From contig JACMIS010000034.1 of NCBI GenBank assembly GCA_014381035.1, positions 1 to 5,753 on the forward strand: a stretch of 5,753 nucleotides of DNA. The letters are read 5' to 3'. The position numbers and the translations under genes were made by a program. The DNA comes from Armatimonadota bacterium. GTDB lineage: Bacteria; Armatimonadota; Armatimonadia; Armatimonadales; Armatimonadaceae. This document shows positions 1 through 1,585 of this stretch, piece after piece. Below the pieces are notes generated by a model, which was not told the origin of the DNA, searched no databases, and was given only the letters and a program-made list of their open reading frames with translations. Each line of letters starts with the position of its first letter. Position 1 is the first letter of the stretch.

Positions 1-283
1 GAACCAATTTGGGATGGAAACTTACGAATGCTTCGGCGTCGCTCTTGCCGGCAGAGCCTCTAATCGAACCAATTTGGGATGGAAACTCGCCTCGCTTGCC
101 GGTTCCATCACGAAAAGCACGTTCTAATCGAACCAATTTGGGATGGAAACGAGCATCGAGATAGCGATCAGCGTCACGAAGATCGTACTCTAATCGAACC
201 AATTTGGGATGGAAACAGGCGCGATCCCCGGTGTACGACAGCGGGAATGCGATACTCTGATCGAACCAATTTGGGATGGAAAC
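1..283 (+). CRISPR. CRISPR array, leader-distal end
   Basis: Five direct repeats are visible: 1-21 (cut by the window edge), 58-86, 122-150, 188-216 and 255-283. The repeat is about 29 nt, starts CTCTAATCGAACC and ends TTTGGGATGGAAAC. The four spacers are 22-57, 87-121, 151-187 and 217-254 (36, 35, 37 and 38 nt) and are unrelated to one another. The copy at 122 starts T instead of C, and the copy at 255 has CTCTG for CTCTA. The GGAAAC 3' end resembles the GAAAC ending of many type I and III repeats, whose last 8 nt become the crRNA 5' handle, so the sense strand is probably plus. Repeats degenerate to the right, so the leader and newest spacers should lie left of the window. No cas gene is present, so the subtype is open. 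The left repeat boundary is uncertain by 1-2 nt. Confidence 0.96.
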
Positions 284-308
284 TGTTCTGACCCTGCCGG
301 TCCGTTTT
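284..308 (+). CRISPR. Left part of a spacer interrupted by a mobile element
   Basis: These 25 nt follow the repeat ending at 283 and stop at the GGGG that opens the left inverted repeat of the inserted element. The last five bases, GTTTT (304-308), recur at 1537-1541 just beyond the element's other end. Joined to 1542-1556 they give a 40-nt spacer, slightly longer than the 35-38 nt of the intact ones. The split-spacer reading is an inference from the repeat, inverted-repeat and direct-repeat positions. Confidence 0.7.
304..308 (+). repeat. Target-site duplication GTTTT, left copy
   Basis: GTTTT directly precedes the GGGG of the left inverted repeat, and an identical GTTTT directly follows the CCCC of the right one (1537-1541). 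A 5-bp AT-rich duplication is the Tn3-family signature. Five bases can match by chance, but this pair sits exactly at both predicted ends. Confidence 0.72.
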
Positions 309-346
309 GGGGCGACTGCAGTTTTTCGAGAAAATTGTACGCTGAG
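309..346 (+). repeat. Left terminal inverted repeat (IRL), Tn3-type
   Basis: This is a 38-nt sequence starting GGGGCGACT and ending GTACGCTGAG. Against the reverse complement of 1500-1536 it matches 29 of the first 35 positions with one 1-nt gap, including an unbroken 14-nt block GAAAATTGTACGCT. Length, GGGG start and ACGCT-GAG end fit Tn3-family ends, where the inner part is the transposase binding site and the outer GGGG is the cleavage end. Confidence 0.82.
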
Positions 347-476
347 GGATATTTTCAATTAACTCGACGGGAACGGCGGGGTCGGGCCGCTTCAGTTCCC
401 TACGGATGATGGCAGCCACCCGGCGACTGTCCACACTGGCACAGAGCAGTGGGGTGATCGTCTGCTCGATACTTAG
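347..476 (-). pseudogene. Possible gene remnant beside the left element end
   Basis: On the minus strand a frame is open from just after a stop at 477-479, running toward and through the left inverted repeat. The stretch from the GTG at 434 reads protein-like (VAAIIRRELKRPDPAVPVEL) with many G/C third positions for about 25 codons. It then continues through the inverted repeat into the CRISPR repeats, so the downstream part cannot be a natural coding sequence. I do not recognise it and see no TnpA or resolvase motif. It may be the leftover 3' end of a former passenger or transposon gene, or chance. Confidence 0.22.
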
Positions 477-505
477 TCACCGGGTAGGGTATCAACGAAT
501 CGGAG

Positions 506-1039
506 CTAACCCGCTGTCACGAGTGCTTTCTCTTCTGTCGCGACCTGCGCTTCCGGGCGGAGCGATTCGGGATCGAAACCGGGCAGCGGCGGAAGCAGCC
601 CAAGCTGCCGCACCATTTCCAGATCGTCGCGGCAGGCATAGTGCTCGTGGATCGCTCCACCCTGCACACGGTAAACATGAATATGGTCTGCAGAGAACGT
701 TTTCCCCGTGGGCGGTATCCCCATCAGCAGACCGCCATTCACCGGCAGTTTGCTGACTCCCCGGTGCGTTCCGCTAAAGCGCATACGCATGGTAACCCAT
801 TCCTCCTCCGCCGTTACCAGAACCGGTTCAAAGCGGGCATCCGGGAACGTCTTCGTGATGTCCAGAAGTATATGCCGGATTACCTCGCGGTCCACGGGAA
901 AGCCATGGTTGATCACCTTCTCCGCGAAGAACGCCACACAGCCGTCCACATCTCCCTCGTTGAGCCGTGCGTTCATTCGGAGCGCGAGATCCTTGTTGTT
1001 TTCTTCGACGCTGACAGAGTCATTTTGCTGCATACTCAT
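506..1039 (-). CDS. SnoaL-like / ester cyclase family protein
   Basis: The 177-aa product belongs to the SnoaL-like NTF2 fold superfamily (ester cyclase, polyketide cyclase type). Visible signs are an N-terminal helix region (about 13-40), FPDARFEPV at 65-73, and the C-terminal sheet segment DHIHVYRVQGGAIHEHYACRD at 118-138 (a His/Asp-rich strand pair lining the usual pocket), followed by the family-typical LEMVRQLGLLP at 140-150. Residues 151-177 are a variable tail. Some relatives close polyketide rings by aldol chemistry, but most bacterial members are uncharacterised and nothing here gives the substrate, so only the fold is assigned. It starts at the ATG at 1039, with AGGT 10 nt upstream as a weak ribosome-binding site. 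A second ATG lies at codon 3. The gene stands alone inside the Tn3-like element, so it looks like a passenger, and it is transcribed toward the CRISPR array. Confidence 0.88.
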   Translation of the reverse strand: MSMQQNDSVSVEENNKDLALRMNARLNEGDVDGCVAFFAEKVINHGFPVDREVIRHILLDITKTFPDARFEPVLVTAEEEWVTMRMRFSGTHRGVSKLPVNGGLLMGIPPTGKTFSADHIHVYRVQGGAIHEHYACRDDLEMVRQLGLLPPLPGFDPESLRPEAQVATEEKALVTAG

Positions 1040-1230
1040 TGATTGTTCTACCTATCTTTGTTTTTAGGTTTCGGCGGGACGCAATGTTTCGTCGGCACCA
1101 CACGAGAAACCCTCGACAGAGTATCTTTTGAGAGCATGGATCGGGAACTGGCGTTAGGCAGGAGAAGGAGGGTAACCAAAGTCGTGGGGACGACCGGACA
1201 AAAGACAGATTGTCTGCTTTTGAAGCTACT

Positions 1231-1470
1231 TCATCTTCCTGTCATGTGGCCCCTTGTGTCTTGCTTTTGTGCTACAACAGCGTAGCCTTTGCCTGATTTG
1301 GTGGACAAAGTTATGCAGTATTCTCCTTTAGTTTCAGGAGTGCGAGCCCCATTCGGGCTGATAAACCTGTATAATGCCGCTTTGGTGAAGGGCATATTCC
1401 ACTGCCTGTCTATCAATTCGCAACAGAAGGTCTGCTCTCTTGCGAGTTTAGCCCCACAGGCTTCTCTCAA
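1231..1470 (-). CDS. Small unrecognised ORF inside the mobile element
   Basis: This minus-strand frame is open from 1500, just inside the right inverted repeat, to a TGA at 1231. The first usual start is a TTG at 1470 (79 aa); an ATG at 1392 would give about 53 aa. The sequence is not low-complexity (for example WNMPFTKAALYRF, then GEYCITLSTKSGKGYAVVAQ) and looks like a small basic alpha/beta protein, but I recognise no family, signal peptide or membrane segment. Codon use is more A/T-rich at third positions than in the chromosomal genes to the right. An AAGGAG at 1502-1497 overlaps the inverted-repeat end, but no start lies at a proper distance from it. It may be a remnant of a longer gene whose 5' end was lost at the element boundary. 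Confidence 0.35.
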   Translation of the reverse strand: MREACGAKLAREQTFCCELIDRQWNMPFTKAALYRFISPNGARTPETKGEYCITLSTKSGKGYAVVAQKQDTRGHMTGR

Positions 1471-1499
1471 AAGTTGCGGTGGGATAGCCCAAAACGCTC

Positions 1500-1536
1500 C
1501 TTAGCGTACAATTTTCCGAAAGCCTAGAGTCACCCC
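1500..1536 (-). repeat. Right terminal inverted repeat (IRR), Tn3-type
   Basis: Read on the minus strand this 37-nt sequence starts GGGGTGACT and ends GTACGCTAAG, the canonical ACGCTAAG inner end of the Tn21/Tn501 branch. It is one base shorter than the left end because of a deletion in the middle (TTTCGG against TTTCGAG). The 14-nt core GAAAATTGTACGCT is identical in both ends. Confidence 0.82.
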
Positions 1537-1556
1537 GTTTTGCGCACCGGTGAACA
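1537..1556 (+). CRISPR. Right copy of GTTTT and right part of the interrupted spacer
   Basis: Positions 1537-1541 are the second GTTTT copy of the target duplication. Positions 1542-1556 are the remaining 15 nt of the interrupted spacer, which abut the displaced CRISPR repeat at 1557. Together with 284-308 they rebuild one spacer-sized unit. Confidence 0.68.
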
Positions 1557-1585
1557 CTCTAATCGAACCCATTTGGGATGGAAGT
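1557..1585 (+). CRISPR. Displaced degenerate terminal CRISPR repeat
   Basis: This is a single copy of the array repeat, 1274 bp beyond the last contiguous repeat and in the same orientation. It matches 26 of 29 positions: A to C at position 14 of the repeat, and the terminal AC replaced by GT. Loss of the 3' end is typical of the leader-distal last repeat of an array. No further repeat follows, so this was probably the end of the array before the mobile element entered. Confidence 0.88.

Follow-up and report, generated by a model that had tools for sequence, protein, structure and literature searches.

A transposase-less Tn3-family cassette, very probably of the TnpI kind, within a CRISPR spacer of an Armatimonadota bacterium

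CRISPR array, interrupted spacer and flanking genes

The window, i.e., the whole stretch of 5,753 nucleotides analysed here (positions 1 to 5,753 of contig JACMIS010000034.1, forward strand, from the Armatimonadota assembly GCA_014381035.1), is a fragment that starts inside a CRISPR array. The array (1–283, plus strand) opens with a partial repeat (1–21) and continues with four full 29-nt repeats (58–86, 122–150, 188–216, and 255–283, with zero to one mismatch each), which are regularly placed and separated by unique complete spacers of 36, 35, 37, and 38 nt (22–57, 87–121, 151–187, and 217–254, respectively). The same repeat occurred on average 0.00 times in 200 shuffled windows. One more copy, degenerate at three positions (26/29 retained) and oriented as in the array, was located at 1557–1585 (plus strand), and between it and the last contiguous repeat lie the two parts of an interrupted spacer and, within them, a 1,228-bp element without a transposase (309–1536). 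The left part of the spacer comprises 25 nt (284–308, plus strand) and ends in GTTTT (304–308), while the right part (1537–1556, plus strand) begins with a second GTTTT (1537–1541) that is followed by the remaining 15 nt (1542–1556). The element is therefore flanked by a perfect 5-bp target duplication, and when it is removed together with one GTTTT, positions 284–308 and 1542–1556 join into a single 40-nt spacer, longer than the other four (35–38 nt), and the order repeat-spacer-repeat is restored. A previous sequence-only reading of this locus had given the repeats, the ends of the element (309–346 and 1500–1536), both GTTTT copies and the 40-nt spacer the same coordinates, all of which proved right.

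The side of an array on which the leader lies usually follows from the orientation of its repeats. The repeats of the window have GGAAAC at their 3′ end, and related repeats, which were detected in 7 of 291 Armatimonadota genomes (23-nt pattern, 2–3 mismatches), end in ATTGAAAC at the places listed, so that the leader would probably be on the left side and the oldest spacer of the array would be the split one. The insertion is younger than the acquisition of the spacer that it splits and can be dated no further; the sequence-only reading had placed it after the growth of the array's old end, which holds for this one spacer and says nothing more on that end. No cas genes were found in the window (eight ORFs searched against Pfam and five against PADLOC), nor were Cas proteins detected near related arrays among 10 ORFs scanned with PADLOC (out of 29 ORFs of ≥ 150 aa in loci L185 and L187), the matches there being weak ones to PrimPol (8.2e−4) together with others to the mads_2, mads_3, and mads_8 models. 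The array (1–309) retrieved three phage records, all with an E-value of 1 or worse. For the restored spacer, partial matches were obtained in eight plasmid and four phage records (best E 0.5) with no convincing protospacer among them, and exact 22-nt patterns of the restored spacer and of two of the four complete spacers were present in 0 IMG/VR contigs. At its far side, the degenerate last repeat pairs with the DNA behind it (GGGAT...ATCCC) in a terminator-like hairpin (1574–1593) with a T-rich tail; two sites with terminator-like hairpins were counted within 200–1700, compared with 1.9 on average in shuffles.

The array is adjoined by a methyltransferase gene (1645–2607), with several Armatimonadota and one member of Cytophagales among its named relatives and with a weak match to the PADLOC model mads_2 (6.3e−5). 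The nearest genome found was the MAG ES-bin-63 (Armatimonadota), the methyltransferase of which is 89% identical. The array repeat had no match in ES-bin-63 at ≤ 3 mismatches, and the contig that carries the methyltransferase gene reached at best 17 of the 29 repeat positions, thus an empty site could not be shown, and the search for a relative with an uninterrupted array, as suggested with the sequence-only reading, found none. Two further features were recorded around the methyltransferase. Near the divergent starts of this gene and of a phosphatase gene lies an imperfect inverted repeat (2457–2558) with 31-nt arms that are 84% complementary. On the ES-bin-63 contig (locus L004, 1–300), two inverted matches to one part of the methyltransferase are found at the contig start, possibly as an assembly fold-back.

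Ends and passenger segment of the element

Transposons of the Tn3 family are bounded by inverted repeats of approximately 38 bp that have a GGGG tip and a TACGNTAAG inner box. The element has such ends, the left one (309–346, plus strand) being 38 nt long and reading GGGG...TACGCTGAG, and the right one (1500–1536, minus strand) having 37 nt, one base short of the 38 found in the left end and in the relative described below. When each is extended by one base inward, the two ends align with one gap and agree in 32 of 39 columns, and the inner 18 nt, GAAAATTGTACGCTRAGG, are present in two inverted copies, compared with a mean of 0.00 in 200 shuffles at ≤ 2 mismatches. The GGGG tip and the TACGNTAAG inner box are also seen in the relatives of the element, its left end reading CTGAG and not CTAAG, and both tips are directly abutted by GTTTT, which corresponds to the 5-bp target duplication of the family. 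One could suppose that no insertion took place at all, that the array ends at 283, and that unrelated flanking DNA with a stray repeat follows, as the failure to find an empty site would allow; however, the inverted ends, an exact duplication of 5 bp next to each tip and a 26/29 repeat in the right register all speak against this, and we consider it hardly credible.

The element is a non-autonomous derivative of the Tn3 family and not a full member of it. A DDE transposase TnpA has about 1000 aa, and no ORF of such size is present in 309–1536; likewise, no TnpI tyrosine recombinase was found among the scanned ORFs of the element. MITEs, according to the definition in a section of PMC4133298, are small (about 30–300 bp) and multicopy, and the 1,228 bp of the element with their uninterrupted gene do not agree with this. 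What is present is the structure of a mobile insertion cassette (MIC, a name that appears in an excerpt of PMC6542083) or of a TIME, i.e., Tn3-family ends and a passenger gene, the transposase being absent. The sequence-only reading had spoken of a miniature transposon, a term that suits 1,228 bp with an ester-cyclase gene (506–1039) only in part; mobile insertion cassette fits better.

Directly inside the left end, a stretch without a convincing homologue (347–466) has a minus-strand reading frame that stays open into the inverted repeat. As a peptide, it had no match in Pfam or in plasmids, and its comparison with the 291 Armatimonadota genomes gave 11 at an E-value of up to 0.1, the best of which (0.0026, for one genome) was at chance level. 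The DNA of the element gave no match to plasmids in the distant search mode. The passenger segment (467–1302) is 88% identical (736/836) to DNA on a contig of ES-bin-63, where the alignment breaks off on either side of the counterpart; Tn3-type ends were not seen in its surroundings. This likeness to DNA that lacks such ends speaks for a mobile insertion cassette and not for a MITE.

The passenger segment contains the gene of a SnoaL-like ester cyclase (506–1039, minus strand, 177 aa), the protein being 84% identical to the copy in ES-bin-63. The gene is uninterrupted in both, which, together with a dN of 0.085 and a dS of 0.265, suggests selection on the protein during some or all of its history. 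Aside from the window itself, the ester cyclase matched best a protein labelled Akkermansiaceae in one source and Armatimonadota in another, which is also encoded on a contig of ES-bin-63 (G002:C288). Upstream of the gene, a stretch of 51 nt (1127–1177) shows zero differences between the window and ES-bin-63 and is possibly regulatory; in nine Armatimonadota genomes, the 98 nt around it had a good match in ES-bin-63 only, with five others at E 0.08 or worse. The ester cyclase was also considered as a defence gene, an idea that was dropped as it had no match in PADLOC.

A complete Tn4430-like transposon and the recombination core

The Tn3 transposase domain (PF01526) was detected in 7 of the 291 Armatimonadota genomes. 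In one of these (G016), a 4,220-bp contig (locus L156) is one complete transposon, with identical 38-bp inverted repeats as both contig ends. Its TnpA (1007 aa; PF01526, 2.4e−132) matches the solved Tn4430 transposase over nearly the full length (E 6.2e−189), and a tyrosine recombinase, TnpI (331 aa; PF00589, 2.3e−21), is encoded as well. The left end of the window element agrees with the end of this transposon at 30 of 38 positions (23 in the best of 20 shuffled windows), and in alignments the two ends of the element share 31 and 30 of 39 columns with it. The Tn3-type insertion in the last spacer that the sequence-only reading had proposed is supported by the 5-bp duplication and by the regular order of repeats and spacer that excision restores; this complete Tn4430-like relative, with its similar ends and a similar recombination core, lends it independent support.

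A 33-nt part of the transposon end occurs at eight places in G016 with zero mismatch. On contigs C10 and C14, an end is located on each side, and the 5-bp flanks pair as ATAGT and CACAG, while the flanks of the single ends on C13 and C18 form no pair. For each of C10 and C14 (approximately 65 and 29 kb; loci L188, L189, L191, and L192), the two contig ends meet in a copy of this Tn4430-like transposon with matching flanks, as would be seen for circular plasmids interrupted by such a transposon.

In the window, a candidate TnpI-type recombination core (TTCGCAACAGA-8 nt-TCTCTTGCGAG) is located at 1417–1446, 90 bp from the right end, and the transposon of G016 carries a palindrome (CTCGCAACAGA-8 nt-TCTGTTGCGAG) 94 bp from its end and upstream of tnpI. 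Their arms agree at 20 of 22 positions, whereas 500 first-order shuffles of the element gave 17 at most. In Tn4430, as laid out in a section of PMC7157771, the site is upstream of tnpI and consists of two inverted repeats as the core, at which recombination takes place, and of two direct repeats. Judged by its sequence, the window element appears to possess the inverted-repeat core of such a site. Accessory boxes were searched for at ≤ 2 mismatches, and nothing apart from the two core boxes was present in 1291–1536 and none in 309–480, whereas the transposon of G016 has three boxes from 3951 on, i.e., one beyond the core. When the DNA of the element was searched against the 291 genomes, the match in G016 (E 0.0019) was not significant by itself, and two other genomes surpassed it (7.8e−4 and 8.4e−4), which we took as chance; the weight of the core match comes from its location in a transposon with similar ends and not from an E-value. 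The core pattern was also detected in two phage-like IMG/VR contigs, in which tblastn revealed neither TnpA nor TnpI and which were set aside as unrelated.

With high confidence, we regard 309–1536 as a mobile insertion cassette in a CRISPR spacer, derived from Tn3-family transposons of the TnpI kind and non-autonomous. Points that count against this reading are the searches that gave neither an uninterrupted locus nor a second copy of the exact ends, the right end with its missing base, the unusual length of the restored spacer, the stretch 347–466 with no convincing homologue, the accessory boxes that were not found and the unpaired single ends on C13 and C18. The cassette could instead be of another Tn3-family kind, with a serine resolvase, and its TnpI-like core a chance palindrome. 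The accessory boxes that were not found, the core motif standing alone in the two phage-like contigs and the inner-end letters that the window has in common with elements of two other genomes (G044 and G009) would all suit such a reading. Against it stand the similar ends of the transposon whose core is matched, the near-equal distances of both cores from the end and a number of matching arm positions that no shuffle reached, and we judge a chance palindrome unlikely.

The assignment of the cassette to the TnpI (Tn4430-like) subgroup on these sequence features is somewhat uncertain. The match of the G016 TnpA to solved structures leaves the subgroup unsettled, as the chains matched were those of Tn4430 only, and a search of TnpA against plasmids, with at least 5000 records, was not used for subgrouping, all those listed having < 60% identity. 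TnpI gave 38 plasmid records, and of the five regions fetched, the one from Rubrobacter alone lists an adjoining Tn3 transposase, which implies that recombinases of this sort often do not serve as Tn3 resolvases. According to sections of PMC7157771, TnpI occurs in only three members of a 190-member tree and extends beyond the Tn4430 subgroup, Tn5401 and TnBth4 being named as well.

Between the passenger segment and the core, 1303–1395 (minus strand) is a possible remnant of the start of tnpI as judged by its position, no sequence similarity having been seen: an ATG at 1395 is 22 nt away from the core palindrome, and this distance is 18 nt in the relative. Such a remnant bears on the origin of the cassette, which might be a decayed autonomous TnpI-type transposon with the ester cyclase as its original passenger, with tnpA and most of tnpI deleted and without any capture of a gene. 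The tnpI-side region (the core and possibly the start codon) remaining beside the ester-cyclase segment is what such decay could leave, but tnpA of the relative stops 45 bp from the left end, and blastn shows no trace of tnpA at the left end in the window, an absence that a deletion could also produce. We consider this course of events possible, although doubtful.

Proposed transposition and known counterparts

The mobile insertion cassette retains both ends needed by a Tn3 transposase and, as it seems, the core of the site at which TnpI recombines, with the ester-cyclase segment taking the place of the transposase and resolvase genes of a full transposon. TnpA acting in trans would have brought about replicative transposition into the CRISPR spacer, by which GTTTT was duplicated, and TnpI, again in trans, could have resolved the cointegrate at the retained core. 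A guide from this position would be split, as the 25 nt left of the old spacer lead straight on to transposon sequence, approximately 1.25 kb ahead of the next repeat; its guide function would be lost, and the neighbouring spacers are intact and should still work. The insertion was most likely neutral, because an old spacer is the one that a cell can best spare. Another scenario is that it was selected for disarming immunity, i.e., the broken spacer targeted a plasmid that brought the autonomous TnpI-type partner, and the jump allowed the carrier to stay. The presence of partner copies on the two plasmid-like contigs of G016 was counted in favour of this scenario and the outcome of the protospacer searches (plasmids, phages, and exact 22-nt patterns in IMG/VR) against it, and we hold it to be very unlikely.

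Both the type of event and the type of element are already known. With Tn4430 (site layout as given in a section of PMC7157771) and the complete transposon of G016, the cassette shares GGGG...TAAG-type ends of about 38 bp, the 5-bp duplication and a TnpI-type core at about 90 bp from one end; it differs from them in the absence of tnpA and tnpI, in the accessory boxes, which were not found, and in the ester-cyclase gene. IS101, as described in a section of PMC4133298, is likewise a transposase-less Tn3-type element that has kept both ends and a resolution site, although its site works poorly with the resolvases encoded by Tn3 and Tn1000 and no passenger gene is mentioned in that section. TIMEs, covered in the same section (PMC4133298), also have no transposase, possess ends that can be moved in trans and include larger forms with passenger modules, yet those described there have Tn5563a-like ends and come from Pseudomonas, whereas the cassette is of the TnpI kind and from Armatimonadota. 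Among insertions into arrays, the transposase-less MITE HqIRS37 lies within a CRISPR spacer of Haloquadratum walsbyi HBSQ001, in this case in an archaeal host; counted from the leader, it sits between repeats three and four, and no passenger gene is mentioned in the relevant section (PMC3119063). A section of PMC4390879, in which transposition into CRISPR arrays is called very rare, reports ISC1359 in a Sulfolobus spacer as well as ISH4 and a 132-bp MITE in euryarchaeal arrays, all of which differ from the cassette in being IS or MITE and in having archaeal hosts. Among the titles listed on transposons and CRISPR of Armatimonadota, none concerns such an insertion. The small twist here is that a TnpI-type Tn3 element comes from Armatimonadota and that a cassette has, as it seems, kept the recombination core. 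The locus provides a clean sequence-level case of a gene-carrying Tn3 cassette that interrupts a CRISPR spacer in Armatimonadota, and a TnpI-type Tn3 transposon is shown in this phylum. Furthermore, a passenger segment with an end-less counterpart in a relative allows the study of gene pick-up by such cassettes.

Other copies of the inverted repeats, on which the sequence-only reading had made its claim depend, were not found in the exact form of the window's ends; the searches yielded similar ends of other transposons instead. The 18-nt inner-end pattern was not enriched in the phylum (19 of 291 genomes with 21 places at ≤ 2 mismatches, vs. about 21 for a reversed control), and a GGGG tip at the right distance accompanied it at four of the 21 places (G009, G044, G097, and G108), the one in G108 having no inverted partner within its 3-kb locus, which slightly lowers the confidence in the main reading. 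In IMG/VR, a 17-nt inner-end pattern was present in two contigs, one of which (L002) has a GGGG tip near the contig end and looks like a real Tn3 end, and the other (L001) lacks a tip at the expected distance and was dismissed as a chance hit. In G009, a genome with no match to PF01526, the pattern belongs to a 765-bp transposase-less Tn3-type element (locus L161, 8039–8803) with ends GGGG...TACGCTAAG and a TAGCT duplication, and such elements thus occur elsewhere in the phylum Armatimonadota. Within this 765-bp element, a second internal stretch resembles the tip of its own end.
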